Shown: positions 4,178 through 22,501 of the stretch, one piece after another
Layout: the number at the start of each line of letters is the position of its first letter
Position numbering within the stretch: the stretch's first letter is position 1
NCBI RefSeq assembly: GCF_003403075.1
Contig: NZ_CP031557.1
Location: 2,108,001-2,172,000, forward strand
From: Flavobacterium psychrotrophum
Lineage (GTDB): Bacteria; Bacteroidota; Bacteroidia; Flavobacteriales; Flavobacteriaceae
Length of the DNA: 64,000 nucleotides
Reading direction: 5' to 3'
Position numbers and translations under genes: made by a program
Notes under the pieces: generated by a model
What the model saw: the letters and a program-made list of their open reading frames with translations, nothing else
The model's database searches: none
Told to the model about the DNA's origin: nothing

Positions 4178-4239
4178 ATCATCAAAAGTAAATAGTACTC
4201 CGATCAACTTTATAATTTGTACTAATATGATATGGGGTA

Positions 4240-4869: not shown

Positions 4870-4871
4870 AG

Positions 4872-6055: not shown

Positions 6056-6061
6056 ATTGAT

Positions 6062-6373
6062 GTACTTAATTGTGTATGTGTATTTGTAATGCCGTGCCAT
6101 GCTATGTATACCGTTATAATTGTACGGTGATACGTAAACCCGTTTATACTTGCGCAACTATGTATTGAGCAGCATACAACAGTATGCCGGTACGGACGTA
6201 TGACTGTACTGCTGTTGGTACTTCGTGATCTATATCGGTACTTATTTACCCATGTTTGTATACACTTCCTGCGGTACGTTTATACCGCTTTACCTGCATT
6301 CGGGAGTACCGGTGTAGCTACGTACTGACGTATATACATAGCAACGTACTTACAGATGCAGGTACAATAGTAC
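6062..6373. repeat. Cluster of GTAC-containing sites upstream of traA
   Basis: The tetramer GTAC occurs 12 times here, at 6062, 6122, 6190, 6206, 6218, 6238, 6274, 6306, 6322, 6346, 6362 and 6370, where about one would be expected by chance. Many are extended to GGTAC, GTACG or GTACT, and several lie within longer TACGTA-like palindromes. The cluster lies between the traA start and the candidate oriT. It could be a ParA/ParB-type partition site or a multi-copy operator. This function is inferred; no family match is known to me. Confidence 0.55.
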
Positions 6374-6440
6374 GCTGCTACTTCGCCAATTTCCCATATT
6401 GGAAGGTATTGACACTATATGTCTTTTTATGTCACTGATT

Positions 6441-6660
6441 TCGTTGTCAACGATTTAAAAAACAAAACTTTACTTTGTAAACTACAAAGTGTAATGGCAA
6501 ATTTTGGATAAACGGCAGGGAGCCGTTTTCATCCACGCTAACCTTAATCCGTCCCACAGGGCGGATTTTCCTTTCGCAGGAAAGGAGCAAGTTGTGTTTT
6601 GAGGCACCCCAAACTACGCGGGTGCCCCAAAACAACTTGCCCCTGCAGGGGGCTGGAAAA
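6441..6660. other. Candidate origin of transfer (oriT) region
   Basis: This gene-free stretch lies just upstream of mobA-mobB, where Bacteroidota elements keep oriT. It holds TCGTT/AACGA at 6441-6453, a perfect ACTTTGTA/TACAAAGT repeat at 6472-6490 with a 3-nt spacer, a large hairpin at 6587-6640, and the 12-bp palindrome CCCCTGCAGGGG at 6640-6651. Such nested inverted repeats are typical of relaxase and RHH-accessory binding sites. The nick site itself cannot be placed from the sequence. Confidence 0.55.
6587..6640. repeat. Large inverted repeat in the candidate oriT
   Basis: The left arm at 6587-6609 (GCAAGTTGT, GT, TTTG, A, GGCACCC) pairs with the right arm at 6620-6640, whose reverse complement reads GCAAGTTGT, TTTG, G, GGCACCC. 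Only one mismatch and a 2-nt bulge break about 20 base pairs. The loop is 10 nt. A T-run terminator function is unlikely because no T-tract follows on either strand, so a relaxosome role fits better. Confidence 0.7.
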
Positions 6661-6704
6661 CACCCTCCGAAGTCGGGGTTTTGTACAACGTAAAATGGAC
6701 TGAT

Positions 6705-7133
6705 ATGGAAGGAGCAGATAAAAAAAGAGGTATTGGCGGAAGGAAGCCTAAGGCTGACCCGAGTACCCACCGGTACGTGTTCCGGTTAACCGATCAGGAA
6801 AATGCAAAATTCCTGTCACTTTTCGAGGCATCAGGCTTGGATAACAAAGCGAAATTTATCGTATCTGTACTATTTGAAAGGGAGATCAGGGCAGTGAAAA
6901 TAGATGGGGCTGCCATGGATTATTACATGCGGCTGACCACATTGTACGGGCAGTTCCGGTCCGTCGGGGTAAATTACAACCAGATCGTTAAGATACTATA
7001 CCGGAATTTTTCGGAGAAGAAGGCCGCTGCCTACCTCTTTAAACTGGAAAAGCAAACGGCAGAACTGGCTTATTTGTGCAAACAAATAATGGATTTGACA
7101 GACGAATTCGAAGTAAAATACCTGAAAAAGTAG
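6705..7133 (+). CDS. mobA: MobA, relaxosome accessory protein
   Basis: This is a 142-residue mobilization protein of the CTn MobA type. It starts MEGADKKRGIGGRKPKADPS, continues with RYVFRLTDQENAKFLSLF and ends in a region (GVNYNQIVKILYRNFSEKKA) typical of MobC-fold nicking accessory proteins that bind oriT and help the relaxase. The frame opens eight codons earlier at a TTG, but the ATG at 6705 gives the usual basic N-terminus. The stop lies five bases before mobB, so the two genes are surely cotranscribed. The candidate oriT lies directly upstream. Confidence 0.88.
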   Translation: MEGADKKRGIGGRKPKADPSTHRYVFRLTDQENAKFLSLFEASGLDNKAKFIVSVLFEREIRAVKIDGAAMDYYMRLTTLYGQFRSVGVNYNQIVKILYRNFSEKKAAAYLFKLEKQTAELAYLCKQIMDLTDEFEVKYLKK

Positions 7134-7138
7134 CGGTT

Positions 7139-8419
7139 ATGATTGCAAAAATTGGTCATGGGACAAATATTATGGGCGCACTTTCCTATAACCTGAGCAA
7201 GGTTAACCAGGAAAAAGGGCACGTTTTATTTACCCAAAAAATGCGTGAAAGCAGGGATGGTACCTTCAGCCTGGGTGATTGTTATAAGTCGTTTGAACCG
7301 TATTTAGCGGCCAACAGGAACACTGAAAAACCGGCATTACACATATCCCTTAATCCCGATCCGGGAGACAAGGTCGACGATAGCCGGTATATTGCCATGG
7401 CACAGGAATACATGAAGGAAATGGGATATGGGCAGCAGCCTTACATTGTATTTAAGCATACCGATATCGAGCGCACCCACATCCACATTGTTTCGACCAA
7501 CGTGGACCGCCTTGGGAAAAAAATACCGGACACTTTCGAGCACAGGCGCTCCATGCAGGCCTGCCGCGAACTCGAAAGAAAGTATGGACTTACTATTGCG
7601 CCGGGGGCAGAAAAAGACAGTGCACAGGAAACGTTGTTTAAACCGGTGGACTACAGTAAGGGAGATATAAAAAGCCAAATTGCGGCTGTGGTCCGTTATC
7701 TCCCCAAGTATTACAGTTACCAGAGTTTAGGGGCGTACAACGCGCTCTTATCCCTGTTCAATATTACCGCCCAGGAAGTGACCGGCGAGCAGTTAGGAAA
7801 ATCCCGCCAGGGTATCGTCTATTTTGCTTTGGATGCCTCCGGGCAAAAAGCGAGCAACCCTTTTAAAGCCTCGCTGTTTGGCAAAAATGCCGGCTTTACA
7901 GCATTAAAGGCGCATTATGAAAAATCGGGTGAAGTATTTAAAAATGGTACCTTAAAAGGTATACTTAAAAATACCCTTGAGGCTGCAATGCACATTGCCA
8001 GTGGCGAAGCCGATTTCACTACGATGCTGAAAGGACAGGGTATTAATACCGTGGTTCACCGAAACCCGGAAGGGCGCATTTACGGGATTACCTTTATTGA
8101 CCATACCTCAAGGGCCGTCTGGAACGGTTCCCAATTAGCGAAAGGCCTTTCTGCCAATGTATTTAACGAGTGGTGGACTAATGGGATCAACCCAAAGAGC
8201 ATGGATGTCGGCCGTGATCAAATACTGAAACAAAATTTCTCATCTCAGGAGACTGCAATGGAGGGGCCGTTTGGCTTTTTGGACAAGACAAACAACGATA
8301 GCCATAATGCCGGAAATGTACTGGCCGAAGTGATAGGTGGATTATTACCCACTGACCAGGGAGAAAATTATGAGGAACTGGCTTTCGCCAATAAGATGAA
8401 GAAGAAAAGAAAGCACTAA
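7139..8419 (+). CDS. mobB: MobB, HUH relaxase
   Basis: This is the relaxase that nicks oriT and leads the transferred strand, 426 residues from the ATG at 7139. The N-terminus MIAKIGHGTNIMGALSYNL is the usual MobB start. The relaxase domain (PF03432 type) shows PALHISLNP and the metal-binding motif HTDIERTHIHIVSTNVD, with the HxH pair in THIHIV. The C-terminal part (about residues 200-426) is less conserved. The frame is open 21 codons further upstream inside mobA, but that part has no family similarity. The next backbone gene, mobC, normally adjacent, is displaced by an 8.3-kb cargo block. Confidence 0.92.
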   Translation: MIAKIGHGTNIMGALSYNLSKVNQEKGHVLFTQKMRESRDGTFSLGDCYKSFEPYLAANRNTEKPALHISLNPDPGDKVDDSRYIAMAQEYMKEMGYGQQPYIVFKHTDIERTHIHIVSTNVDRLGKKIPDTFEHRRSMQACRELERKYGLTIAPGAEKDSAQETLFKPVDYSKGDIKSQIAAVVRYLPKYYSYQSLGAYNALLSLFNITAQEVTGEQLGKSRQGIVYFALDASGQKASNPFKASLFGKNAGFTALKAHYEKSGEVFKNGTLKGILKNTLEAAMHIASGEADFTTMLKGQGINTVVHRNPEGRIYGITFIDHTSRAVWNGSQLAKGLSANVFNEWWTNGINPKSMDVGRDQILKQNFSSQETAMEGPFGFLDKTNNDSHNAGNVLAEVIGGLLPTDQGENYEELAFANKMKKKRKH

Positions 8420-8471
8420 AGAGGCCAGAGAAAGTAGTTCATTATATTTTATACTCAGAGTTTTTCGGCCT

Positions 8472-8534
8472 TTTGAACAAAGTGAATTCGGACATTTGAA
8501 CAAAGCCGCCAAGTAAGATCCTATCTACTTTTGT
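8472..8534 (+). promoter_or_regulatory. Promoter region of the SDR gene with a tandem TTTGAACAAAG repeat
   Basis: The 11-mer TTTGAACAAAG occurs at 8472-8482 and again at 8495-8505, a 23-bp period that suits a dimeric regulator such as an AraC protein. A Bacteroidota -7 box, TACTTTTG (TAnnTTTG), lies at 8526-8533, about 20 bases before the ATG at 8555. Binding by the AraC gene downstream (9683-10495) is an inference. Confidence 0.5.
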
Positions 8535-8554
8535 CTTAAGTAAATTTTAAAATA

Positions 8555-9559
8555 ATGAGACAGACAAATTACAACGGGGCATTACAGAAACCTCTCAATT
8601 CAGGTTTCAACGCAAAATCAGTTTCAACAGAAGTAGCCAGAGGAATAGACCTTACAAGCAAAATTGCCATTGTAACAGGTGGAAATACGGGGATTGGGCT
8701 CGAAACAGTAAAAGTACTGGCAAATGCAGGTGCAGTAGTAATTGTCCCGGCAAGGGACATTGAAAAAGCAAAAAGGAACCTGCAGGGAATTGCCAATGTC
8801 GAAATAGAAGCGATGGACCTGATGGACCACAAATCCATCGACGCATTTGCAGAAAAATTTCTGGCTTCGGGCAGGCCTTTACACTTGCTTATCAACAATG
8901 CGGGAATTATGTGGGTTCCGCTTCGCAGGGACAATCGCGGGATTGAATCTCAATTGGCAGTGAATTATTTAGCACAGTTTCAACTAACTGCCAGGCTATG
9001 TACAGCATTAAAACGTGCAAATGGTGCAAGGGTTGTAAATGTTTCTTCGCAGGGACATCAATTTGCACCTTTCAATTTTGACGATCCGAATTTCATACAT
9101 CGTGAATATGAAACCCTGCAGGGTTATGGGCAGTCCAAGACAGCTGTCAATCTATTTTCGCTTGAACTGGACAACCGCATAAAGGAGTTCGGTGTCAGGG
9201 CATATTCACTGCATCCCGGTTCTATCGCAGGAACCGAATTAGGAAGGGAAGCATCTTTAGAGCTGTTTATAAAAATGGGCTTTTGCGATGACAAGGGAAA
9301 TATGCTTCCCGAGGTTAGCGCTTCTTTAAAAACAATTCCACAAGGAGCATCTACGACAATTTGGTGTGCTACAAGTCCACAACTAAATAACCTTGGCGGT
9401 GTATACTGTGAAGACAATGACATTGCCGAACTATATTGCGGGCAGGAATTTTCGTCAGGTGTTAAACCTTATTCGTTAGAGGAAGGCAACGCCAGAAAAT
9501 TGTGGAAATGGAGCGAGGAAATAACAGGCATACTATTTCCGGTTGATCGAATTTTGTAA
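8555..9559 (+). CDS. Short-chain dehydrogenase/reductase (SDR)
   Basis: This is a 334-residue NAD(P)-dependent oxidoreductase. The Rossmann nucleotide-binding motif TGGNTGIGLETV is at about residues 40-51, the NNAG motif appears in LLINNAGIMWVP, and the catalytic Tyr-x-x-x-Lys is in GYGQSKTAVN. Length and C-terminal region resemble the retinol-dehydrogenase-like SDR group often annotated simply as oxidoreductase. The substrate cannot be told. It is the first cargo gene after mobB and is followed by an AraC regulator on the same strand. It is not a close copy of the other two SDR genes in the block. Confidence 0.88.
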   Translation: MRQTNYNGALQKPLNSGFNAKSVSTEVARGIDLTSKIAIVTGGNTGIGLETVKVLANAGAVVIVPARDIEKAKRNLQGIANVEIEAMDLMDHKSIDAFAEKFLASGRPLHLLINNAGIMWVPLRRDNRGIESQLAVNYLAQFQLTARLCTALKRANGARVVNVSSQGHQFAPFNFDDPNFIHREYETLQGYGQSKTAVNLFSLELDNRIKEFGVRAYSLHPGSIAGTELGREASLELFIKMGFCDDKGNMLPEVSASLKTIPQGASTTIWCATSPQLNNLGGVYCEDNDIAELYCGQEFSSGVKPYSLEEGNARKLWKWSEEITGILFPVDRIL

Positions 9560-9682
9560 ATTTGAGGCAATGGGCGTTACAAGGGTTTCACCGTGCTATA
9601 TTGAAAAGGGAAGGAGTAAATACGAGATGGCCACCTGCATTTGAAAGTATTATTTTTGAACAGTATACATTACATAAGCTAT

Positions 9683-10495
9683 ATGGAATTTCATTTAAAA
9701 TATATAACAGACGATATTAAACTTTCCTGTTACGAAGACAAGTTGTTCAAAACTGAAGTCGTTTTTGATCATCATATGCTTGTGTGGTTTATTTCGGGTG
9801 AAACCAAAATTATTCAGGCAGATCAAAATTATGTATTTAAAGCTGGGGACATTTTTCTTATCCCAAGAAATCAATTAGCAACAATTATCAATTATCCGAA
9901 AGACGGACTGCCCCATAAATCAGTTGTAATGCACTTAACTATTGAACGGCTAAGGGAGTTTTACACAAACCTAAATGTAAAAACAAAAGTTTCTGCAACA
10001 CAAAAAGTTCGAAGTTTTGACAAACACCCTTTTTTGGAAAGCTGCCTTGCTTCGTTGATACCTTATTTTGACCTGCAGGAAGCTTTTCCCGAAAATATAG
10101 CTTCACTAAAGATTACTGAAGCAATCTCAGTCCTTAGAACGATTGACAAAAGCATCGACGACATATTGGCGAATTTTGAAGAACCGCATAAAATTGACTT
10201 ATCCGGTTTTATGGAAAAGAACTTTATGTTCAATATGCCTCTGGAAAAATTCTGCTACCTGACCGGACGAAGCATGACAACTTTTAAACGTGATTTTCAC
10301 AGGATTTACAATACAACGCCACAGCGTTGGCTCACACTAAAGCGGTTGGAGCTGGCCCATTACCAACTTTCAAAAAAAAATAAAAAACCTGTTGAAGTGT
10401 ATTTAGAAACAGGCTTTGAAAACCTGTCGCATTTCTCCTACTCTTTTAAAAAACATTTCGGTTACACCCCCACAGAATTGATTGGTCAGGATTAA
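9683..10495 (+). CDS. AraC-family transcriptional regulator
   Basis: This protein has 270 residues from the ATG at 9683 (MEFHLKYITDDIKLS); the frame is open 14 codons earlier only from a TTG. The N-terminal half is cupin-like (LVWFISGETKII, then GDIFLIPRNQ). The C-terminal half is the double HTH of AraC proteins, with MPLEKFCYLTGRSMTTFKRDF and the second helix pair in PVEVYLETGFENLSHFSYSF and KKHFGYTPTEL. It probably controls the SDR gene upstream. It is distant from the two AraC genes at 10803 and 12954. Confidence 0.88.
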   Translation: MEFHLKYITDDIKLSCYEDKLFKTEVVFDHHMLVWFISGETKIIQADQNYVFKAGDIFLIPRNQLATIINYPKDGLPHKSVVMHLTIERLREFYTNLNVKTKVSATQKVRSFDKHPFLESCLASLIPYFDLQEAFPENIASLKITEAISVLRTIDKSIDDILANFEEPHKIDLSGFMEKNFMFNMPLEKFCYLTGRSMTTFKRDFHRIYNTTPQRWLTLKRLELAHYQLSKKNKKPVEVYLETGFENLSHFSYSFKKHFGYTPTELIGQD

Positions 10496-10607
10496 AATGA
10501 GCGGTAAATTTTTGGAATCACTTGCTTTTCCAGCTATCAGAATTACAAAAGCCAAATCCAGTCAAGGTATTGAAATAGACTCCCACATTTCCCAGTCCGG
10601 TCTTTAA

Positions 10608-10721
10608 AGCCTTTAAATTCATGTCCGGACATTAAATATTAGTAAAATGCAGGGAGAAGATGATTTAAGGGGGTTGGCCAGGATAATGGCGTTCATGCGC
10701 GCGGTAAGTATGTTACTTTGA
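10608..10721 (+). pseudogene. Truncated copy A of the mobC 5' end and its leader
   Basis: About 108 bases match the DNA just upstream and at the start of intact mobC (16693-16802) at most positions. The ATG at 10647 gives MQGEDDLRGLARIMAFMRAV and runs into a TGA after 24 residues; intact mobC begins MQGEDDIRGLAKIMAFMRAV. Past GCGGTAAGTATGTTA the sequence departs from mobC and instead matches DNA downstream of copy B. It marks an old boundary between mobB-linked cargo and mobC. Confidence 0.85.
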
Positions 10722-10802
10722 AAACCAAATGAAAAGAAAGAGGAAATATCGAAGACGACAGTAGTAGGTTTAATACAATGAAAATAAATGCTGCCCGGGC
10801 AA

Positions 10803-11717
10803 TCAATTAAACAACTGCCTGAATTCTAACGGCGAAACGTTAGTTTTTGTCTTAAAAAGTTTACTGAAGGATTGCGGGTGTTCAAAACCCAATTGAAAAG
10901 CTATCTCACTTACGGTTAAATGGGTAGTGGATAATCTTTCTTTCGCTTTTTCTATAAGCTTCAGGTGAATGTATTGCTGCGCGCTTTGTCCTATCTGTGA
11001 CCGAAGCAAATCACTTAAATATCCCGGCGACAAATGCAATTGTTCTGACAGAAACTGTACGGTTGGCACACCCTGATTTACCGTCTTTTGGGTAGCAAAA
11101 TAGTCATCTAAAATGGCTTCCGTTTTTTGAAGGACATCGTTATTAACCCCTTTACGTGTAATGAACTGCCGTTTATAGAATCGGTTGACATAACTAAGCA
11201 ACAATTCTATCTGGGAAACAATCACTTCCTGGCTGAACTCGTCCACACGGGCATTGATTTCCTGTTCCATGATTTTATACACCGATAAAATGACCTCCCT
11301 TTCCTGGCTGGATAAATGCAATGCTTCATTCATCGAATACGAGAAATAACCGTACTGCTTAATTTTCTCTGCCAATGGATATCCTAACAAAAAATCAGGG
11401 TGTATAAGCAGCAGATAAGCATACGTATTCCTGTTGTATTCATTACTTCCTACCAGCTGGTTAGGCGCCGTAAACAACATACTGCCCTCATTAAAATCAT
11501 AATAATCCTGCCCGTATTTCAACCTGCCGCTATTTTGCGTAATGAAGGTTATTTTATAGAAATCCAGCACATCATAAATAGGTGCCATGTCCGTATTAAA
11601 AGGATTGCTTTCATTGAAATGGACCAAACTTATGAGCGGGTGCTGGGGTTTGGGTAAACCAAACGCCTCGTGGCTTTCCGATATGGAGCGAAACCGTACT
11701 ATGTTCTTATTTTTCAT
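10803..11717 (-). CDS. AraC-family regulator (paralogue 1)
   Basis: This is a 304-residue AraC/XylS regulator. The N-terminal part (residues 1-180) includes DFYKITFITQNSGRLKYGQDYYDFNEGSMLF, broken here to its key blocks FYKITF and YYDFNEG. The C-terminal HTH region ends with SEIAFQLGFEHPQSFSKLFK and NVSPLEFRQLFN. The gene at 12954-13868 has almost the same C-terminus, and the similarity extends past both stop codons into the mobC remnants, so the two are duplicates. It lies 69 bases downstream of an SDR gene on the same strand and is probably cotranscribed with it. Confidence 0.9.
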   Translation of the reverse strand: MKNKNIVRFRSISESHEAFGLPKPQHPLISLVHFNESNPFNTDMAPIYDVLDFYKITFITQNSGRLKYGQDYYDFNEGSMLFTAPNQLVGSNEYNRNTYAYLLLIHPDFLLGYPLAEKIKQYGYFSYSMNEALHLSSQEREVILSVYKIMEQEINARVDEFSQEVIVSQIELLLSYVNRFYKRQFITRKGVNNDVLQKTEAILDDYFATQKTVNQGVPTVQFLSEQLHLSPGYLSDLLRSQIGQSAQQYIHLKLIEKAKERLSTTHLTVSEIAFQLGFEHPQSFSKLFKTKTNVSPLEFRQLFN

Positions 11718-11786
11718 TATTCAAATCTAATCAAAAAACCTTTGGCGGATGTATTGGCATCGCCATAGGTTCTTTCTTTTTAAATA

Positions 11787-12560
11787 TTACCAGGGAAGTA
11801 CATTGTCAGCACCGGCAAAATCGGCCGGTCCTGTAAAGCTTCCATTGGGAAGGTCTTCTGCTAGTGCTACGCGTATGGGTTCCAACGAGCCGTGTTCCAC
11901 AGTATCGGTTCCCTGAAAGTTATTGAGTGCTGTCGCCGTGAAGCCTGGGCTTACCAAATGAATTTTGATGTTGGTGTTTTCCAATTCATTGGCTAAAGAC
12001 AGGAAAATTCCGTTAAGTGCCGTTTTAGATGCCCCATATACTGCGTCAAATGCTGCACGGTACGGATTTTGGGGATTCGCATTTAATGTAAGTGAACCCA
12101 AAGCACTGGATACGGTAACAATACGTGCAGCTGGTGCGTTTTGCAGCAGCGGTAATACTGCCTGTGTTACCGCAAGTGTGCTAAATACATTCGTGTCCCA
12201 AACCGTACGCAGCTCACTCATAGAAGCAATGCTGGGCTTTTGGGCACCTAATACCTCTTCCATGGTGCGCCCTTCTTTTCCGGCATGAGAAATGGCGGCA
12301 TTGTTAACCAATAAGGTAAGATACCCGGATTCGTCCTGAATTTTTGCTACTGCTCTATTGATGGTATCCGTATCGGTAATATCCAAATGGATGGCTTTGG
12401 CAGCATTGCCGATCGCAGAAGCCGCAGCTTCCCCTTTTTGCAGGTTTCTTGCCCCAACATACACCGTATACCCTTCAGTAGCTAACGCTTTAGCGACCTG
12501 AAATCCAACTCCGGTATTGGCACCTGTTACAAGTGCTACTTTTTTTTTGTTCGTCTCCAT
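11787..12560 (-). CDS. Short-chain dehydrogenase/reductase (SDR)
   Basis: This protein has 257 residues and starts METNKKKVALVTGANTGVGF. The nucleotide-binding TGANTGVG motif, the NNAA motif in LLVNNAAISHAG and the active-site YGASKTALNGIF are all present, so the enzyme should be functional. Length and motifs resemble carbonyl reductase-like classical SDRs using NADPH. The substrate is unknown. A tandem operator-like repeat lies 50-85 bases upstream of the start, shared with the promoters of both aldo-keto reductase genes. The AraC gene at 10803 follows. Confidence 0.88.
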   Translation of the reverse strand: METNKKKVALVTGANTGVGFQVAKALATEGYTVYVGARNLQKGEAAASAIGNAAKAIHLDITDTDTINRAVAKIQDESGYLTLLVNNAAISHAGKEGRTMEEVLGAQKPSIASMSELRTVWDTNVFSTLAVTQAVLPLLQNAPAARIVTVSSALGSLTLNANPQNPYRAAFDAVYGASKTALNGIFLSLANELENTNIKIHLVSPGFTATALNNFQGTDTVEHGSLEPIRVALAEDLPNGSFTGPADFAGADNVLPW

Positions 12561-12614
12561 AATTTTATCTTTAAAAATTTAATACCCCAAAATTCCAGTA
12601 TATTGATGCGGTAG

Positions 12615-12647
12615 TTGTAGTCAGATCAGGAATTATTGTAGCCTAAT
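12615..12647 (-). promoter_or_regulatory. Tandem half-site operator upstream of the SDR gene at 11787
   Basis: TTGTAG occurs at 12615-12620 and 12636-12641, a 21-bp period. The second half reads GGAATTATTGTAGCCTAA, which matches GGTAATTGTTGTAGTCTAA upstream of the aldo-keto reductase gene at 15728 with few changes. Direct repeats with a period of 21 bases are typical of AraC-family binding. The assignment to any one regulator is inference. Confidence 0.55.
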
Positions 12648-12798
12648 CGAGGATTGCACTTAGTAGGTGCCCGATGGTAAAAGTCCCTGAAAATAACAAT
12701 CAACACCAACAGTGCCATTTACTGCTATCCGCAGCCAAAATAAAAGGACTAAGTTCCACACTTTTTAAATTCAAACCTGCTTAGTTAAGATTTTTGTT

Positions 12799-12880
12799 GT
12801 GCAGGGAGAAGACGATTTAAGGGGCTCGCCAAGATTATGGCGTTTATGTGTGCAGTAAGTATATTACTTTGAAAACTAAA
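12799..12880 (+). pseudogene. Truncated copy B of the mobC 5' end
   Basis: From GTGCAGGGAGAAGACGAT at 12799 the DNA matches the start of intact mobC at 16732 and copy A at 10647. One G of the GGGGG run has been lost, which shifts the frame after eight codons, and the ATG is now GTG. After the GCAGTAAGTAT block it follows copy A, not mobC, through the gap and into the 3' end of the AraC gene at 12954. It is a decayed scar at a module boundary. Confidence 0.8.
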
Positions 12881-12953
12881 TGAAGAAAAAGAGAAAACAT
12901 CGAAGAGGATAGTAATATGTTTAATGGAATGAAAATAGATGATGCCCGGGCAA

Positions 12954-13868
12954 TCAATTAAACAACTGCCTGAATTCCAAAGGCGAAACGTTTGTTTTTG
13001 TCTTAAAAAGTTTGCTGAACGATTGCGAATGTTCAAAACCCAGTTCATAAGCTATTTCCGAAACGGAAAGATTTGTAGATGATAATTTTTCTTTCGCTTT
13101 TTCTATGATTGCACTCTGAATATATTGTTGTGTATTTAGCCCCGTCAAGGAACTCAACATATCACTAAGGTAACGTTGCGATAGCTTTAATGCTGTGCTG
13201 ATATATTTTACCGATGGCAGACCGTTTTTCAGGCTGTTTTCTTTTTCAAAATAGTCGTTTAACAGCCTGTCCAATGAAGTTACGATATCGTGATTGACTG
13301 CTTTTCGGGTAATAAATTGCCTGTTGTAAAAACGATTGCTGTAATTCAATAATAATTCTATTTGCGATACCAAAACATCCTGGCTGAAACCGTCAATATT
13401 GTTGTCCAGTTCATTGGCTATCGTAGCAAATAAATTGGCAATAATTTCTTTTTCCTTTGCCGATAAAAATAATGCTTCTGAAACATCGTACGAGAAAAAC
13501 CCATAGTGATGTATTGTTTTTCCTAAGGGGTAATTTCGTATAAAGTCCGAATGGAAATACAAGGCAATACCCTCATAGCTATCAATATCTTCTGGTGGAA
13601 AAACAACTTGTTTGGGCTTTAAAAATGCTAACCCGCCTTCTTCAAAATCGTAATATCCCTGCCCGTATTTTATTTGTCCTGTAAATGTAGGCTTAAAAGA
13701 AATTTTGTAAAAATCAAGGCTTACTTTTTCCCCTTTCGGAAACATGTCTATCGAAACATTATTGTAGTCAACCACTGCGATCAAAGGGTGCAATGGCGCA
13801 GGAACTCCCAAAACACGCACAAGTTGCGATATACTATTAATGTGGTTTATGTTAGGCTGTTGTTGCAT
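12954..13868 (-). CDS. AraC-family regulator (paralogue 2)
   Basis: This is a 304-residue AraC/XylS regulator of the same length as the gene at 10803. N-terminal blocks FYKISF, KYGQGYYDFEEGG and the HYGFFSYDVSEALFLSAKEKE region correspond to those of the first copy. The C-terminal HTH block SEIAYELGFEHSQSFSKLFK and the end NVSPLEFRQLFN are almost identical to it, while the N-terminal halves have diverged. That pattern fits either recent duplication followed by selection on ligand binding or gene conversion of the 3' part. It lies five bases downstream of an SDR gene and ends an SDR-AraC operon with the aldo-keto reductase gene. Confidence 0.9.
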   Translation of the reverse strand: MQQQPNINHINSISQLVRVLGVPAPLHPLIAVVDYNNVSIDMFPKGEKVSLDFYKISFKPTFTGQIKYGQGYYDFEEGGLAFLKPKQVVFPPEDIDSYEGIALYFHSDFIRNYPLGKTIHHYGFFSYDVSEALFLSAKEKEIIANLFATIANELDNNIDGFSQDVLVSQIELLLNYSNRFYNRQFITRKAVNHDIVTSLDRLLNDYFEKENSLKNGLPSVKYISTALKLSQRYLSDMLSSLTGLNTQQYIQSAIIEKAKEKLSSTNLSVSEIAYELGFEHSQSFSKLFKTKTNVSPLEFRQLFN

Positions 13869-13873
13869 TTTGT

Positions 13874-14623
13874 TTACGAATTTAATCTATTTTGTTTTGC
13901 CGGGCGAATAACAATGTCGCCAATTTCAACATCGTCAGGCTGGCTTATTGCATAAATTACAGCATTGGCAATGGCTACCGGATCTATAGCAATTTGTTCC
14001 ATTCCTTTTTGAACAGCTGTTTTCATTTCTTCGTTTTTTATGTTGTTCGCAAAGTCTGTTTTTACAAACCCGGGCGAAATGCCTGTAATGCGAATGTTTC
14101 CGTCGGACTCCTGACGAAATGCTTCTGCAATAGTGCGAATGGCATTTTTAGTTCCGGCATAAACGCCCTGCATTGGCACGATCTTTATACCTGAAGTTGA
14201 AATAATATTGACGATATGCCCCGATTGTTGTTGTTTAAAAACGGGAATTGCAGCAGCCATCCCATACAAGACACCTTTAAGGTTAATGTCGATCATTTCT
14301 TCCCAGCCATCAATATCCAATGCGTCAATGCGGCTTAACTGGCTGACGCCTGCGTTGTTTACAATGACATCTAATTTTCCGTAGTGTTCCACTGCTGTAT
14401 TTACCAACCGGGCCAGATCGGCTTTATCCTTTACATCAATTGTAGTACTGGCAGCTTCGCCACCTGTACTTTTAATTTCTTCAACAAGTTGTTGTAATGG
14501 CTCTGTTCGTCTTGCTCCCAAAACAACCTTTGCCCCGTTTTTTGCTAATTCTATAGCAATGGCCTTACCCATACCGCTGCTTGCACCAGTAATGGCTATA
14601 ACTTTATCTTTGATATTTTCCAT
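13874..14623 (-). CDS. Short-chain dehydrogenase/reductase (SDR)
   Basis: This protein has 249 residues, the classical SDR length. TGASSGMGKAIA is the nucleotide-binding loop, VIVNNAGVSQLS holds the NNAG motif, and YAGTKNAIRT supplies the active-site Tyr and Lys. The sequence is closest in style to YdfG/serine 3-dehydrogenase-like oxidoreductases of Bacteroidota, substrate unknown. It lies between an aldo-keto reductase gene (10 bases upstream) and an AraC gene (5 bases downstream) on one transcript. The three therefore probably act together, with the operator at 15684-15709 as the control point. Confidence 0.88.
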   Translation of the reverse strand: MENIKDKVIAITGASSGMGKAIAIELAKNGAKVVLGARRTEPLQQLVEEIKSTGGEAASTTIDVKDKADLARLVNTAVEHYGKLDVIVNNAGVSQLSRIDALDIDGWEEMIDINLKGVLYGMAAAIPVFKQQQSGHIVNIISTSGIKIVPMQGVYAGTKNAIRTIAEAFRQESDGNIRITGISPGFVKTDFANNIKNEEMKTAVQKGMEQIAIDPVAIANAVIYAISQPDDVEIGDIVIRPAKQNRLNS

Positions 14624-14633
14624 TATGTTCGTT

Positions 14634-15641
<1,008 letters not shown>

Positions 15642-15683
15642 TTAATTTCAGGTACAAAATTGCTGATTGTTGTGCTTTGAGAA

Positions 15684-15709
15684 GTAGTCAGGTTGGTAAT
15701 TGTTGTAGT
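15684..15709 (-). promoter_or_regulatory. Tandem half-site operator upstream of the AKR gene at 14634
   Basis: GTAG occurs at 15684 and 15705, a 21-bp period. The 17-mer TTGGTAATTGTTGTAGT at 15693-15709 is repeated without change at 16595-16611 upstream of the other aldo-keto reductase gene. The identical site in front of two separately transcribed genes argues for one shared regulator. An AraC protein from this block is the obvious candidate. Confidence 0.6.
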
Positions 15710-15727
15710 TAGATTTTCAAACGTTAT

Positions 15728-16531
15728 TTAAACACTGTAAATTAGTCCGCGACCTTTATCTAACGATTTTATCGTTGCCATATCATCAGCAGACAACTCA
15801 AAGTCAAATACATTGAAATTTTCCTCTATCCTTTTCACGTTCGTTGATTTCGGGATAACAACTACTTTCCTTTGAATTAACCATCGCAGAACCACTTGGG
15901 CAACACTCTTATTATACTTGCCTGCAAGCACTTTTAAAGGTTCATCATTAAAAAGATTATTTTTACCCTGGGCGAAGGGTGCCCAGGACTCCAACTGTAT
16001 GCCTTGAGATTTCAAAGCGTTCTGCATTGCTGTTTTTTGGGAAAATGGATGGGTTTCCACCTGGTTGACTGCGGGTACCACACTATGCTGTTTAATTAAA
16101 TCTGAAACCTGGCTTATTTTGAAATTACTTACACCTATAGCCCGTACTTTACCTTCCCTGTATAAATCTTCCATTGCGCTCCAGGAAGAATTTATGTCTC
16201 CCTGCGGTAGATGGATTAAGTAGAGATCCATATAATCAAGCCCCATTTTCTTTAGCGATGCTTCAAAAGCGCTTTTTGCATTTTCATATCCGTGATCCGC
16301 GGGTAAAAATTTTGTAGTCACAAAGATTTCTTCCCGTCTGATATTACTTTTCTTAATGGCTCTGCCCACCGATGCCTCATTGTGGTATGCCGCGGCGGTG
16401 TCTATGAGCCTGTAGCCGATATTTAATGCATGTAGCACCGACTGCTCACACTCAGAACCGTCCCGAAGCAGGTACGTACCAAAACCAAGAAGCGGGATTT
16501 TTACCCCATTATTTAATAGTATATGTTCCAT
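15728..16531 (-). CDS. Aldo-keto reductase (2,5-diketogluconate reductase-like)
   Basis: This is a 267-residue AKR of the AKR5 type. The sequence shows GFGTYLL, IDTAAAYHNEASVG with catalytic Asp and Tyr, VTTKFLP with catalytic Lys, and LYLIHLPQGD with catalytic His. The cofactor-binding segment VVVIPKSTNVKRIEENF is intact. It is related to DkgA/YvgN glyoxal and diketogluconate reductases, but the substrate cannot be assigned. It has its own upstream operator (16585-16611) and is the cargo gene nearest to intact mobC, which reads the other way. Confidence 0.9.
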   Translation of the reverse strand: MEHILLNNGVKIPLLGFGTYLLRDGSECEQSVLHALNIGYRLIDTAAAYHNEASVGRAIKKSNIRREEIFVTTKFLPADHGYENAKSAFEASLKKMGLDYMDLYLIHLPQGDINSSWSAMEDLYREGKVRAIGVSNFKISQVSDLIKQHSVVPAVNQVETHPFSQKTAMQNALKSQGIQLESWAPFAQGKNNLFNDEPLKVLAGKYNKSVAQVVLRWLIQRKVVVIPKSTNVKRIEENFNVFDFELSADDMATIKSLDKGRGLIYSV

Positions 16532-16584
16532 TTTACACTGACTTTAATTACAAGTGCAAAATTCTTAATAGCCGTCTGATGAAA

Positions 16585-16611
16585 TGTATCTGAATTGGTA
16601 ATTGTTGTAGT
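16585..16611 (-). promoter_or_regulatory. Tandem half-site operator upstream of the AKR gene at 15728
   Basis: TGTATC at 16585 and TGTAGT at 16606 form two half-sites 21 bases apart. The right half is the 17-mer TTGGTAATTGTTGTAGT (16595-16611), identical to the one at 15693-15709. The site lies 54-80 bases upstream of the reductase start, a fitting distance for an activator. Confidence 0.6.
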
Positions 16612-16731
16612 CTAAAATAAAATAATGACCTCCAAAACCAAACACTGTCAAGCACCGCCGGTGAGTGCCACATTCTTATAGACAAAATGTAGAGCCTTTA
16701 AATTCAAGTCCGAACATGAAAAATTAAAGTA

Positions 16732-18741
16732 ATGCAGGGAGAAGATGATATAAGGGGGCTCGCCAAGATAATGGCGTTCATGCGTGCGGTAAGCATTTTA
16801 TTGGTACTGATGCATTTTTACTGGTTCTGTTATGGCGTTTTTTTTGATAAAGGCTGGACGTTACAGCTAATTAATACCATACTGTCTGGTTTCCAGCAAA
16901 AGGCAGGCTTATTCTCCGAGTTGCTGTACACAAAGCTATTTGCTTTGGTGCTACTTGCGTTAAGCTGCCTGGGTACCAAGGGGGTTAAAAATGAAAAGGT
17001 AACCTGGCGCAAGATCAACAGTACACTTGTGTTTGGTTTTGCGTTATTTTTCTTCAATACGCCCTTATTGAGGGCTTTGGGTACTACCGGGGTATTCTTG
17101 TACATACTTACCACAAGCGCGGGATATATTGCATTAATGGTAGCCGGTGTCTGGATGTCCCGTTTACTGCGCAACAACCTCATGGATGATGTATTTAATA
17201 TGGAGAATGAAAGTTTCCAGCAGGAAACACAATTGATGCAAAACGAGTATTCGGTTAACCTTCCTACAAAATTCTATTACGAAGGGAAGTGGAACAAGGG
17301 CTGGATTAATATTGTGAACCCCTTCAGGGCGACCACCGTGCTGGGTACACCGGGTTCCGGTAAATCCTTCGCCATTATCAATAATTATATCCGGCAGCAT
17401 ATTGAGAAAGGGTTTGCCATGTACATCTATGATTTTAAATTTGACGACCTGTCTACAATTGCCTACAATCACCTGTTGCATAATACTCACGGCTACAAAG
17501 TAAAGCCGAAATTCTATGTGATCAATTTTGACGACCCGCGCCGCAGCCACCGCTGCAACCCCATTAACCCGGAGTTTATGAGTGATATTTCCGATGCCTA
17601 CGAATCGGCCTATACCATCATGCTGAACCTGAACCGGAGCTGGATACAAAAGCAGGGCGATTTCTTTGTGGAATCTCCGATTATCCTGTTGGCCGCTATA
17701 ATTTGGTTTTTAAAGATTTATGATAACGGAAGGTACTGTACATTTCCCCATGCCATTGAATTACTGAACAAAAAATATGCGGATGTGTTTACGATTCTCA
17801 CATCGTATCCTGATTTGGAAAACTACCTGTCACCCTTCATGGATGCCTGGCAGGGCGGCGCGCAGGACCAGCTACAGGGACAGATCGCCTCAGCAAAGAT
17901 TCCACTGTCAAGGATGATCTCGCCCCAGCTCTACTGGGTAATGACCGGCGATGATTTTTCATTGGACATTAATAATCCAAAGGAACCTAAAATACTTTGT
18001 GTGGGTAACAACCCGGATCGCCAGAATATTTATTCTGCAGCCCTTGGCCTGTACAATTCAAGGATTGTAAAGCTGATCAATAAGAAAGGGCAGCTTAAAA
18101 GTTCTGTAATTATTGATGAGCTACCCACGATTTATTTTCGTGGGCTGGACAACCTGATTGCAACTGCCCGGAGCAACAAAGTTGCCGTATGCCTGGGCTT
18201 CCAGGACTATTCGCAACTGACCAGGGATTACGGGGATAAGGAAAGTAAGGTGATCCAGAACACGGTCGGCAATATCTTTAGTGGGCAGGTCGTAGGGGAA
18301 ACGGCCAAAAGCCTTTCGGAACGCTTTGGGAAGGTCTTGCAGAAAAGGCAAAGCATGACCATCAACCGCAGCGATAAATCCACGTCTATCTCTACACAGC
18401 TGGACAGCCTTATACCGGCTTCCAAGATAGCGACACTTACCCAGGGGATGTTCGTGGGCGCAGTCTCAGACAATTTTGACGAGCGCATCGAGCAGAAGAT
18501 CTTCCATTCGGAAATTGTGGTAGATACAGAAAAAGTAGCAGCGGAAGAAAAACACTATCAAAAAATACCGAACATACGGTCATTTACCGGTAAGGATGGT
18601 AAAGATAACATGGTACGGGAAATTGATGATAATTACCGCCAGATCAAACTCGACATTGTAAATATTATTGATTTGGAGCTAACCCGGATAAAAAATGACC
18701 CCGATCTCGCACATCTTGTACCTACGCAAAACAAGAAATAG
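16732..18741 (+). CDS. mobC: MobC, VirD4-like coupling ATPase
   Basis: This is the coupling protein that delivers the relaxase-DNA complex to the mating channel, 669 residues. It has N-terminal membrane segments at about residues 16-36, 64-80, 98-112 and 118-142. A Walker A motif GTPGSGKS is at 205-212 and a Walker B-like stretch SSVIIDELPTIYF further on. Start MQGEDDIRGLAKIM is fixed by conservation with the two truncated copies. In related elements it follows mobB directly; here 8.3 kb of cargo separate them, so it must have its own promoter, probably in 16612-16731. Confidence 0.93.
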   Translation: MQGEDDIRGLAKIMAFMRAVSILLVLMHFYWFCYGVFFDKGWTLQLINTILSGFQQKAGLFSELLYTKLFALVLLALSCLGTKGVKNEKVTWRKINSTLVFGFALFFFNTPLLRALGTTGVFLYILTTSAGYIALMVAGVWMSRLLRNNLMDDVFNMENESFQQETQLMQNEYSVNLPTKFYYEGKWNKGWINIVNPFRATTVLGTPGSGKSFAIINNYIRQHIEKGFAMYIYDFKFDDLSTIAYNHLLHNTHGYKVKPKFYVINFDDPRRSHRCNPINPEFMSDISDAYESAYTIMLNLNRSWIQKQGDFFVESPIILLAAIIWFLKIYDNGRYCTFPHAIELLNKKYADVFTILTSYPDLENYLSPFMDAWQGGAQDQLQGQIASAKIPLSRMISPQLYWVMTGDDFSLDINNPKEPKILCVGNNPDRQNIYSAALGLYNSRIVKLINKKGQLKSSVIIDELPTIYFRGLDNLIATARSNKVAVCLGFQDYSQLTRDYGDKESKVIQNTVGNIFSGQVVGETAKSLSERFGKVLQKRQSMTINRSDKSTSISTQLDSLIPASKIATLTQGMFVGAVSDNFDERIEQKIFHSEIVVDTEKVAAEEKHYQKIPNIRSFTGKDGKDNMVREIDDNYRQIKLDIVNIIDLELTRIKNDPDLAHLVPTQNKK

Positions 18742-18753
18742 GTGTTAAAAAAA

Positions 18754-18788
18754 AAGCCTCTAACCGGGATAATTCCGATTAGAGGCTT
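18754..18788. terminator. Hairpin after mobC
   Basis: AAGCCTCTAA at 18754-18763 pairs perfectly with TTAGAGGCTT at 18779-18788, and CGG/CCG extend the stem inside the loop. A run of A before the hairpin becomes a T-run on the minus strand. It therefore looks best for minus-strand transcripts, with weaker use for mobC. Confidence 0.65.
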
Positions 18789-18872
18789 AAAATTGAACAT
18801 TTCATAGTGTATTGGTTATAAACAGAAAGTAACGTGGTATTATAGAACACTCTCGTGCACTGCAAGCAATAA

Positions 18873-18918
18873 TTGGCCTTATTAGACCCATTATGCGTAA
18901 GTGGTTTAATAAGGCCAA
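18873..18918. repeat. 12-bp perfect inverted repeat between mobC and topB
   Basis: TTGGCCTTATTA at 18873-18884 is matched exactly by TAATAAGGCCAA at 18907-18918, with a 22-nt spacer. No T-tract follows. It is the second of three hairpins in the 255-bp gap between the convergent mobC and topB genes. It may be a backup terminator or a protein site. Confidence 0.5.
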
Positions 18919-18964
18919 CTAAGAATTCCGTAAAGTTTCGCTGGAGGAATCTAAAAAATAGCAG

Positions 18965-18994
18965 AAAGGCTTGCCGTGGTTACGGCAAGCCTTT
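18965..18994. terminator. Bidirectional terminator at the end of topB
   Basis: The stem AAAGGCTTGCCGT/ACGGCAAGCCTTT has 13 base pairs and a 4-nt loop. It sits a few bases beyond the topB stop and is followed by a T-rich stretch on both strands. It should end topB transcription and also block readthrough from the mobC side. Confidence 0.8.
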
Positions 18995-18996
18995 TA

Positions 18997-21078
18997 TTAT
19001 TGGCCTATGGCTTTATCATTGCCAAAGTCGAATTGAACCTCACACTTTTCATTTAAAACAAGACGCGCCGTAAAACCCTTACCGGATTTGCTCTTCATCC
19101 CCTTCAAAAGGCTGGTTGCCTTTCCTGTAACGAGATTATCAATTTCGCCTATAGAAAGCACCAAGCCACATATTTTTCGGAACTGGAGCCAGCCACAGCA
19201 CGCATCAGGGCATTTGACAACCTTGTCGGTAATGAATAAATGTTGTGTGTTACACTTTGGGCATAAAAGTTCCGGCATACCTTCTGTCTTAAATTGGGCC
19301 TGCAATAACTCCTTGGTCACTTCCCGCGTATACGCTTCAATCTCACGTTGAAAATCCTGGCTGTCTAAAAGGCCATCCTCAATCGCTCCCAAAGCCATTT
19401 CCCATTCGCCTGTCAGCGCAACAGAGGAAATACTCATGGATGCGACCATGTCATAAACGGCTTCCCCCTTCGCCGTAGGTACCAGTGCTTTCCCTCTTCG
19501 TTCAATATAGTGCCGCCCGAGCAACGTCTCTATGATTCCCGCCCGCGTGGCGGGTGTGCCCAAACCCACACCTCTGAAAGTTTGCTTTGTATCGGGGTCA
19601 TAGGTGTTACTGGTGACATGTTCCATACGCGTTAAAAGGGTAGCTTCTGTAAAAAGCTGCGGCCCCCGGTGCTGCTTTTCTAAAATGGCACTCCCTGTAA
19701 TGGATAGCGGATCACCCACAGTCAGTTCAGGGACATCGTTTTCCAGTGCTTCATCGTCGTCAAATTCATTTTGAATCCCGCGCCATCCCGGCTCCAGCAC
19801 ATTTACCGCCTTTATTTTAAAATCATAGTGCAACACCTGTAGCCCGGTAGCGACAATTTCCCTCACACAGATTCCTGAAACGGCTTCCAACAAACGCAAT
19901 GCGATCATCTGGTACAGGGTATTTTCTTTGGCCGATAAGGCGGAAGGTACCTTTTCAGTGACCAGCAAACCGTGGTGGTCGGTAACCTTGCCCTCATTTA
20001 CAATGTGCTTGTTAAGCTGTCCAAATTTGATCTTGGGTAGGTGTTTGCCCAGCGCAGCATCCTGCCCAAGCCCCCTGATAAGCCCCGGGAGCACTGCCCA
20101 AAGGTCTTCGGTAATATAGTTGCTGCCGGTACGCGGGTAGGTAATAAATTGTTTCTCGTACAATGCCTGGGCGACCTCCAGTGTCTCGGCAGCAGTAAAC
20201 CCGAACTTCCGGTTGGCGGCCTTCTGCAACCCTGTCAGGTCGTAAAGCAGCGGCACCGGGTCCTGTATGATCTCCGAGTTGACACGGGTAACTACAGCCT
20301 GGTTTTTACGCAGTATGGATTTCAGCGCTTCTTCGGCTTTCTCCCTGCTCTCGAAAGACAAAGAAGAAAGGCTGTTAAAATCGGTAAATGACTTTGTATG
20401 CGTGAGTTGCAGCTGCCAGTATTTTTCGGGCATAAAATCGCGGTACTCCTTATACTTTTCACAGATCAGTGCCAGTGTTGGGGTCTGTACGCGGCCAAGG
20501 GAATACACACCGGAACCTGCCACCAGGCTGAGCGCCTGTGACGCATTGATACCCAACAACCAGTCGGCGCGGCTGCGCGCACGGGCGGAAAGGTACAGGT
20601 TATCGAAATCACCGCCCGGCAGCAGGTTGTCCAGGCCATGGCGCAGCGCCTTTTCGGTCAATGAGCTTACCCAAAGCCTGCTAAAAGGTTTGGTACAATT
20701 GAGGTATTCATAGATGTAACGGAAGATGAGTTCACCTTCACGGCCCGCATCCGTCGCAACGATGATTTTTTCACTCTTTTTAAATAGCTCCCCAATTACA
20801 ACAAGTTGCTTTAGGATCCTTTTGTCAGGCAACAGGCGCTCAGTTCCAGTACCTTTCCTGGGGGTCAGCAAAAAGGGCGAAGGCAAAATCGGGAGGCTTT
20901 CTTTCCGGAATCCCCTGATACCATAATCTTCCGGCAGCCCAAGGGCAATGAGGTGGCCGAGCGCCCAGGTTACCAAGTAGCCGTTGCCTTCCATATAACC
21001 TTCTTTTTTTGCCGTCGCGCCCAACAGCGTAGCCAGTTCACGGGCTACGCTGGGTTTTTCTGCTACTACTGTTATCAT
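18997..21078 (-). CDS. topB: DNA topoisomerase III (type IA)
   Basis: This is a 693-residue type IA topoisomerase. It starts MITVVAEKPSVARELATLLG, with the TOPRIM acidic motif in IIVATDAGREGELIFRYIYEY. The active-site region is YPRTGSNYITEDL, in which Tyr and Arg are the catalytic pair. A C-terminal zinc-type element shows LLCPKCNTQHLF and VKCPDACCGW. TopB is a usual backbone gene of CTnDOT-like elements, where it probably helps resolve DNA during transfer or excision. It lies 16 bases downstream of the DUF3945 gene in one operon and ends in a strong hairpin. Confidence 0.95.
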   Translation of the reverse strand: MITVVAEKPSVARELATLLGATAKKEGYMEGNGYLVTWALGHLIALGLPEDYGIRGFRKESLPILPSPFLLTPRKGTGTERLLPDKRILKQLVVIGELFKKSEKIIVATDAGREGELIFRYIYEYLNCTKPFSRLWVSSLTEKALRHGLDNLLPGGDFDNLYLSARARSRADWLLGINASQALSLVAGSGVYSLGRVQTPTLALICEKYKEYRDFMPEKYWQLQLTHTKSFTDFNSLSSLSFESREKAEEALKSILRKNQAVVTRVNSEIIQDPVPLLYDLTGLQKAANRKFGFTAAETLEVAQALYEKQFITYPRTGSNYITEDLWAVLPGLIRGLGQDAALGKHLPKIKFGQLNKHIVNEGKVTDHHGLLVTEKVPSALSAKENTLYQMIALRLLEAVSGICVREIVATGLQVLHYDFKIKAVNVLEPGWRGIQNEFDDDEALENDVPELTVGDPLSITGSAILEKQHRGPQLFTEATLLTRMEHVTSNTYDPDTKQTFRGVGLGTPATRAGIIETLLGRHYIERRGKALVPTAKGEAVYDMVASMSISSVALTGEWEMALGAIEDGLLDSQDFQREIEAYTREVTKELLQAQFKTEGMPELLCPKCNTQHLFITDKVVKCPDACCGWLQFRKICGLVLSIGEIDNLVTGKATSLLKGMKSKSGKGFTARLVLNEKCEVQFDFGNDKAIGQ

Positions 21079-21094
21079 GGTACATAATTATTTG

Positions 21095-22501
21095 TTACAT
21101 TTTTCTTCCCCTGCTTTTTGCCGGGGCATCCTGTGGTTCCTGCTCCTGCTTAGCGGTAGTTTCCTTTTGGTTCTTTTGGTCCTCTTTTGCAGCATTTCCT
21201 GCCTGTGCCGTTTTGTTCTCTGTAGCTGCGCCCTGCGAAGCCCCGGCAGGCAGGGATTCCTCTTTTGATTTGGCAGGGTTGTTAAAGGAAAAGCCCACCT
21301 TGCCGCTTTCACTGTTGTAGGTGATATAGCCATGGTATTCCTTTTGGTTTTTGTCTACTAGGCCGCTCACATAGACCGTTAACCCGTCCTTCAGTTTATT
21401 GTACTGGTCATCGGTAAGTTCCTTGCCCCTGAACTCCCTCGGTGCCTCGTCGTACGTCCTGCCTTGTGACTGGCCTTGGGCGGGCTTGTTGTCGAACAGG
21501 AATTCCACGTAACGCTTATCGGCATTGAACTGTACCGTGGCATCAAAGGATTCACCTTTCTTCGAGGTCATCCCTTCAAGCTGTAACGGTTTACCTTCCT
21601 GTAAAACTTGTTTTTGGGCATCGTCCAGTTTAACGCCTTTAATTTCGTCGGGTATCTTGATCCATTCTGCCTTGTAGGCTACCAGCTCGTTGGTTTTACG
21701 GTCGACACTGATCACGGAAGGGATATTTTCACTGGTTTTCTGATTAAATAGATCGACGACCCTGCCCATATTCCCGGTGTTCAAAAGGTTATCCTTGTCT
21801 TCCTTCGTAAACTCATGCCCGAAAAACGGGTAGTTCAGGTTAGGCTCTTTTCGTATGCCGTGCATGGCCACGACGACCTGGCCCGCATCATTGGTTTGTA
21901 ACGACAGCCGGGCATCCAATTTTGCGACCGCATCACCCATGGTAAGGGTAAGTGGTACGGTATCGTTGGTCTTAAACCCTTTTAGCAAGGGCTCCATCAG
22001 GTTCATTTTTTCAAGGCGCTCCTTGTTGATTCCTAAATTGGCGAGTGATTCCCAATTCACCTGTTCCGGTTTGAATTTGTACTCGCTTGTCTCCTGTGTT
22101 GACGGTGTTGTTTCCATAGTATTATGATTTTTAAATTGATATTCAGAATTGAGTGCATACTTAGACATGAGCTTTTGGGCATCTTTTCCAAGGTTGTCCA
22201 AATGCGACTGGAGCTCGGCGGCTATCTCTTTCCCTAATGCGTAGGGTACGCGGAAGAAGTCAAAACGGGTGGGCTCTTTGAGCTGGCGCATGAAATTGGC
22301 GAAGAAGTTGGAAAAGAAGTCGCCATTGCGCTCGACACGCATGAAATCCTGCTGCTTTTTTTCATCAATGCCCTCCGCCTTTACGATGCCGTCCTTCGAA
22401 AGCCCCTTGACACCCTTGACCTTGTTTTCTTTTTTATCCAGGACAAGGAGCATTTCATTGAGCTCGTCAGGACTCTTCTGGATTTTTGGCTGGTCTGGCA
22501 T
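21095..22501 (-). CDS. DUF3945/DUF4099 mobile-element protein
   Basis: This protein has 468 residues from the ATG at 22501 (MPDQPKIQKSPDELNEMLLV); the frame extends 12 codons upstream without likely coding. The middle contains VNWESLANLGINKERLEKMN (DUF4099) and two DUF3945 units, seen as GVKLDDAQKQVLQEGKPLQL with MTSKKGESFDATVQFNADKR and the later GKELTDDQYNKLKDGLTVYV. The C-terminal 50 residues are Lys-, Glu- and Gln-rich and probably unstructured. The family is restricted to Bacteroidota conjugative elements and has no established biochemical role. Confidence 0.88.
   Translation of the reverse strand: MPDQPKIQKSPDELNEMLLVLDKKENKVKGVKGLSKDGIVKAEGIDEKKQQDFMRVERNGDFFSNFFANFMRQLKEPTRFDFFRVPYALGKEIAAELQSHLDNLGKDAQKLMSKYALNSEYQFKNHNTMETTPSTQETSEYKFKPEQVNWESLANLGINKERLEKMNLMEPLLKGFKTNDTVPLTLTMGDAVAKLDARLSLQTNDAGQVVVAMHGIRKEPNLNYPFFGHEFTKEDKDNLLNTGNMGRVVDLFNQKTSENIPSVISVDRKTNELVAYKAEWIKIPDEIKGVKLDDAQKQVLQEGKPLQLEGMTSKKGESFDATVQFNADKRYVEFLFDNKPAQGQSQGRTYDEAPREFRGKELTDDQYNKLKDGLTVYVSGLVDKNQKEYHGYITYNSESGKVGFSFNNPAKSKEESLPAGASQGAATENKTAQAGNAAKEDQKNQKETTAKQEQEPQDAPAKSRGRKM

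Follow-up and report, generated by a model that had tools for sequence, protein, structure and literature searches.

Three cargo modules and two mobC–mobB remnants between the relaxase and coupling protein genes of a Flavobacterium psychrotrophum element

Gene content of the gap and the two scars

The stretch of DNA analysed here, called the window, comprises 64,000 nucleotides (nt) of Flavobacterium psychrotrophum (assembly GCF_003403075.1, contig NZ_CP031557.1, positions 2,108,001 to 2,172,000) and carries homologues of mobA, mobB and mobC in the order which we take to be that of CTnDOT. Unlike CTnDOT-like elements, it holds 8.3 kb of cargo between the relaxase gene mobB and the coupling protein gene mobC. 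This gap (8312 bases) contains eight open genes, SDR1+, AraC1+, AraC2-, SDR2-, AraC3-, SDR3-, AKR1- and AKR2-, in which SDR is a short-chain dehydrogenase, AraC a regulator of that family, AKR an aldo/keto reductase, and the sign gives the strand. The array is ordered mobB / SDR1-AraC1 / mobC'-mobB' / AraC2-SDR2 / mobC'-mobB' / AraC3-SDR3-AKR1-AKR2 / mobC, where mobC' is a start of mobC, mobB' an end of mobB, and the two fusions are termed scars A and B (Table 1). Directly 3' of the mobB stop, the usual mobB tail can be read as an untranslated remnant.

The original prediction described two truncated copies of the mobC leader and start, and these are real. Over 111 nt, copy A (10605-10715) shares 86% identity with 16690-16800, and its BLAST E value against the intact mobC start is 2.6e-30. 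A profile of the mobC leader and start recovered both copies, with E values of 3.6e-30 (A) and 1.8e-25 (B). Both are also broken as described, A being halted by a TGA at the joint, and B having a GTG start and a frameshift from the loss of one base. The further statement that A and B agree with each other beyond the mobC part holds (84% over 291 nt, 10665-10955 against 12816-13106, into the AraC 3' ends); it missed that the bases directly after each mobC piece are a mobB 3' end.

This assignment is based on a profile of 137 mobB tails, from which the window, 24 repeat loci and eight loci with odd tails were left out. Over the 64 kb it ranked the native tail first (51.7 bits), followed by scar B and scar A (scores in Table 1), and the best of 40 dinucleotide shuffles of positions 4001-21500 reached 10.5 bits. 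With an earlier, narrower profile B passed the threshold of E 0.01 (E 0.0035), whereas A did not. The combined pattern of mobC' followed by mobB' matched twice in the window and on average 0 times over 100 shuffles. The mobB' half of scar A reads ..FENQMKRKRKYRRRQ-stop, and the mobB of a related locus (L008; related loci are given L numbers) ends ..FENRMKKKRKYRRGQS.

The order within the scars is the reverse of the native one, and the fusion point is identical in A and B. Identity between A and B is 60% in the 100-nt leader, 84% in mobC', 83% in mobB' and 87% in the spacer; within the AraC genes it is 90% in the last 93 nt, 72% in the next 93 nt and 66% in the next 300 nt. Each scar consists of mobC' fused to mobB' and is the border between two whole mobB–mobC intervals, and therefore it is whole mobB-to-mobC intervals that have been stacked. 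That cargo was added repeatedly at one spot, as first proposed, is supported; the modules were not, however, simply placed ahead of mobC, each bringing a piece of a mobC 5' end, a reading that was rejected because the adjoining bases are the end of mobB. Related elements did not show the fragments within unrelated genes, nor was a single long insertion with the repeats within one gene seen. The divergence of about 16% between the scars suggests that the joint is old.

Table 1. Coordinates of the mob genes, cargo genes and scars in the window
Feature	Position	Strand	Evidence or remark
mobA, small mob protein upstream of relaxase	6681..7133	+	Pfam MobC_2 ('MobC-like') E 9.3e-60
mobB, relaxase	7076..8419	+	Pfam Relaxase E 4.6e-29
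SDR1, short-chain dehydrogenase (module 1)	8555..9559	+	Pfam adh_short; relatives at most 82% identical, away from mob genes
AraC1 regulator (module 1)	9641..10495	+	Pfam HTH_18, ExsA_N
mobC-type leader A, end of module 1	10547..10646	+	nearest leaders 78% (L030); 66% to own mobC leader
Scar A, mobC' half, some 23 codons from the start of mobC	10647..10716	+	89% to own mobC; 93% to F. zepuense mobC over 72 nt
Scar A, mobB' half, last 15 mobB codons and stop	10717..10764	+	tail profile 14.2 bits, E 0.0016
AraC2 regulator (module 2)	10803..11717	-	Pfam HTH_18; 91% (amino acids) to F. zepuense interval
SDR2 (module 2)	11787..12560	-	Pfam adh_short; 91% (amino acids) to F. zepuense interval
mobC-type leader B, end of module 2	12699..12798	+	82% to F. 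zepuense leader, next best 70%
Scar B, mobC' half, starting with GTG and lacking one base	12799..12867	+	86% to own mobC; best relative L105, 93%
Scar B, mobB' half	12868..12915	+	tail profile 18.2 bits, E 8.7e-5
AraC3 regulator (module 3); last 31 codons AraC2-like, remainder not	12954..13868	-	Pfam HTH_18
SDR3 (module 3)	13874..14623	-	Pfam adh_short
AKR1, aldo/keto reductase (module 3)	14634..15611	-	Pfam Aldo_ket_red E 1.2e-75
AKR2, aldo/keto reductase (module 3)	15728..16531	-	Pfam Aldo_ket_red E 1.8e-54
Leader of intact mobC, type common to many empty intervals	16632..16731	+	
mobC, coupling protein, intact, 669 amino acids	16732..18741	+	Pfam YWFCY, TraG-D_C

All eight cargo genes are open frames and have probably been kept for function; a role in the detoxification of aldehydes, ketones or quinones would be a guess from their families. 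A topoisomerase gene lies near the mob genes in the window and in L008 and L038.

The mobB–mobC gap as a cargo site in relatives

The loci sampled were 80 named ones (the best 80 of 298), 14 further ones and 78 more of the genus. Left out of the interval counts were L102, L119 and L173 (no mobB in the stretch), L043 (distant mobC), G229:C33 (contig edge) and 24 loci whose two ends both repeat those of earlier loci exactly. Including the window, 146 interval records were measured, 82 empty (12-155 bp) and 64 loaded (536-8312 bp). Since some loci occur in both the named and the unnamed collection (L033 and L106, for example), distinct sequences were taken as the main count: 72 of 128 distinct intervals are empty and 56 loaded, within the same length ranges, and the window is the longest. 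The resulting 44% is not a rate for the phylum, because the loci were selected as near relatives of this mobC and genus.

The gap between the relaxase and the coupling protein genes of these elements is thus a tolerated and widely used cargo site, which bears out the hotspot claimed in the original prediction; its statement that CTnDOT-like elements keep the mob genes together was too strong. As expected of a cargo hotspot in integrative and conjugative elements (ICEs), this intergenic site lacks cargo in some elements and is differently loaded in others, with 53 cargo clusters formed by the 117 open reading frames (ORFs) of the 63 loaded records besides the window. Only ORFs of at least 90 codons from an ATG were taken, and the Pfam scan covered 50 of the 53 cluster representatives (two of L218 and one of L228 were left out), six of the 50 giving no match. 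The families found include ArsR with MerT, a small multidrug transporter with acetyltransferases, cation efflux, an ion channel with a Na/H antiporter, oxidoreductases and others. In the loaded records the cargo extends from the mobB stop to a mobC leader. The description of the array as an unusual way to load cargo is fair for the joints, none of which was found elsewhere in the collections scanned, but loading of the gap is in itself common.

A lincosamide nucleotidyltransferase-like gene occurs among the cargo of L222 and L228. The cargo found most often is one membrane-protein-like gene, about 185 amino acids long, without a Pfam match and with 19 cluster members (L036, L038, L039, L041, L050, L071, L073 and others). 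Directly 5' of the mobC leader, L055, L083, L088, L093 and L096 share a terminator-like stretch (GGTAGC..GCTACC, then a T run) despite different cargo, as if the right end had stayed constant in these five loci while the cargo was swapped.

Beyond the window, a second mobB tail between the cargo and the mobC leader was found solely in L066, over 80 nt (E 2e-19), and in L049 of F. daejeonense, over 47 nt (E 4.7e-7), an element also represented by L155. The duplicated tails of these two differ in kind. A third candidate, L037, was rejected, the match being its own mobB end in another frame. No mobC' fragment was detected in any other measured record at the thresholds used, where one of the fragment searches scored two candidates per genome and cannot alone exclude fragments, and three very short matches (E about 1e-3) were not counted. 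The mobC'-mobB' joint itself had no other match in genome or viral collections, in a scan that may omit the genome of the window and very near ones; both halves of the pattern fit 89 of 145 known intervals, so that about 4 in 10 variants would be missed.

Origin of the modules

Module 2, from mobB' to the mobC' of scar B, aligns with the entire single-cargo interval of F. zepuense (L044) at 1829 of 2131 nt (85.8%). The same AraC-SDR pair occurs in single-cargo form in L205, L123 and L008, with 79-90% identity at the amino acid level. The last of these is a second element in the same genome (1.25 Mb, opposite strand), in which mobB is followed by AraC-, SDR- and then mobC. AraC genes of the module 2 group adjoin mobB in seven loaded intervals besides the window (L044, L205, L123, L008, L176, L066 and L159), and their partners vary. 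In L008 (L008:9244-10982) the cargo AraC and SDR match over their length, yet the open frames are short (225 and 199 amino acids), and this copy of the module may be decaying.

Relatives of the other two modules were found apart from mob genes. The SDR3-AraC3 pair of module 3 has counterparts at 65-72% in four relatives (L233-L236), and among the relatives of module 1 AraC1 adjoins SDR1 in 9 of 11 loci and lies one gene away in a tenth; no mob gene was present in the stretches examined around either. Plain triplication of one module was rejected, as the gene contents and the AraC bodies differ.

The nearest relative of AraC3 changes along the gene. Its codons 1-240 are nearest to L233 (67/78/67%), whereas its last 31 codons are nearest to AraC2 (89%, against 80% for L233); the last 31 codons of AraC2 are in turn 89% identical to AraC3 and 84% to F. 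zepuense. At shared residues the two genes use the same codon in 21 of 28 cases within the last 31 codons and in 61 of 128 elsewhere (Fisher P 0.007), and other cuts gave P 0.014 (25 codons), 0.006 (50) and 0.008 (60). In our reading, drawn from sequence comparison, the switch of nearest relative in AraC3 together with the shared codon use points to recombination close to the 3' end of the AraC genes.

Possible routes of stacking

The array is probably best explained by three gap contents set end to end through one founding joint, made by end-joining or illegitimate recombination, and by later homologous copying and mixing. We infer that a piece of DNA with one end inside mobC (around codon 23) and the other close to the 3' end of mobB would have been self-closed or tandemly duplicated by end-joining or illegitimate recombination, giving one mobC'-mobB' joint, perhaps in an AraC2-SDR2 element resembling that of F. 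zepuense. Two joints would then have arisen where the shared stretches recombined, by a single crossover or by unequal exchange. Homologous exchange with other DNA would have changed the left contents to SDR1-AraC1 and the right contents to AraC3-SDR3-AKR1-AKR2, of which the switch near the last 31 codons of AraC3 appears to be a preserved part, and the scars would have decayed afterwards. Such a route would require no dedicated insertion enzyme. Two published routes yield joints of this type without one, namely linear-end ligation followed by a single crossover, and homology-facilitated illegitimate recombination, HFIR (available parts of PMC3240628 and PMC5361080). In E. coli conjugation, according to the available part of PMC3240628, the former was about 10 times commoner than HFIR, and three of four HFIR junctions were without homology. 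For the window, the common fusion point of the scars leads us to prefer ligation or tandem duplication; for L049 and L066 we prefer HFIR, since in each the two mobB tails are of different kinds.

Several observations weigh against this route. No second case of the joint was found, which speaks against its being old despite a divergence suggesting age, and no intermediate turned up, neither a two-module element nor one module in tandem. Against one parent of the F. zepuense type, the mobC' half of scar B is nearest to L105 and leader A to L030 (identities in Table 1), and the mobB' halves are too short for naming a parent. With the cut at 40 codons the Fisher P was only 0.057, and codons 241-273 of AraC3 are nearest to L236 (77%) and L234 (73%), the gene being mixed in more than one way.

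An alternative to which we give tentative credence differs in the first step only. HFIR would have acted at each gain, an incoming element pairing with the resident one in mobB, its cargo following, and the other end, inside mobC, being joined illegitimately just inside the 3' end of the resident mobB, so that the resident mobB tail and the old cargo remain downstream. L066 and L049 show exactly such a form, with a mobB carrying a new tail, cargo, an old mobB tail and the mobC leader, and the model is the one put forward for immunity gene arrays of the Vibrio type VI secretion system (T6SS; available part of PMC5361080). The common fusion point of the two scars would, however, rarely be expected from two separate illegitimate events, and HFIR is very rare in E. 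coli conjugation, 3e-10 per recipient in the available text of PMC3240628. The same common fusion point, and the mobB tails on both sides of the cargo in L066 and L049, could also be ascribed to a site-specific recombinase or transposon adding cargo at the mobC 5' or mobB 3' end, with the scars as its attachment sites; we consider this improbable. The insertion enzyme that had been proposed for a search did not appear, no transposase or integrase family being present in the eight cargo proteins of the window or in the 50 cluster representatives scanned (gap genes only, six of the 50 without a Pfam match), and a transposon in the gap was rejected on this ground. A recurrent site-specific joint was likewise rejected, as none was found elsewhere in the collections scanned. 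Moreover, the module edges and leaders vary instead of having constant ends, and the duplicated tails of L066 and L049 are unlike in kind. A tRNA or RNA as the target was rejected, since the window contains no tRNA and positions 5000-19500 gave no Rfam match at the gathering score. An assembly error or chance similarity is very improbable, and nothing favours it apart from the risk that repeats pose in general. The genome consists of a single contig of 4,843,008 bases, the copies are about 16% divergent, the gene content of the modules differs, and the shuffles fail to reproduce the scar pattern.

Returning to the founding joint with homologous exchange, it is tempting to speculate that a scar could serve as a reusable docking site, cargo bounded by scars leaving as a circle and entering other elements by recombination at mobB, mobC or a scar. 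We regard this as unlikely; if true, it would constitute an integrase-free cassette system that stacks traits in the relaxase–coupling protein gap of Bacteroidota elements.

Integron gene cassette arrays likewise stack gene modules at a single place. The window differs from them in that its cargo is without an integrase and its modules comprise two to four genes, likely with their own promoters; no attC-like site was seen, no search having been aimed at attC. Cargo hotspots between transfer genes are already known from the SXT/R391 ICEs, in which, according to the available part of PMC5122569, variable genes lie between conserved transfer genes, some sites are empty and homologous recombination changes the contents. 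Those elements belong to another phylum and use other gaps, whereas here whole relaxase-to-coupling protein gaps are stacked with fused mobC'-mobB' scars. The effector-immunity arrays of the Vibrio cholerae T6SS resemble the present case in serial addition at one place, with the old module pushed downstream and remnant 3' ends kept, and homologous plus illegitimate recombination has been proposed for them (available part of PMC5361080); there, as far as that part describes, old effectors are lost and immunity genes kept, whereas here the modules are whole and the remnants derive from flanking transfer genes.

A word search of open-access titles and abstract starts, which is not proof of absence, found no earlier description of a mobB–mobC cargo site in Bacteroidota, and the available part of PMC8694125 does not mention one. 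The data mark the relaxase–coupling protein gap as a site where conjugative elements of Bacteroidota commonly carry cargo, with metal, drug, redox and other genes among its contents, and the window as a rare fossil of one gap growing to three modules without an obvious insertion enzyme. The joints and the stray mobB tails render the route testable.

The genome also has a third mobC-like gene, a distant one (52%; G000:C1:3447615-3449564, L011 and L043), with a relaxase-like gene upstream. Within the window, positions 28230-40550 carry on the minus strand a defence-like run consisting of a McrBC component, an AAA protein, type I restriction S and R subunits, a putative abortive infection protein and a SIR2-like protein.

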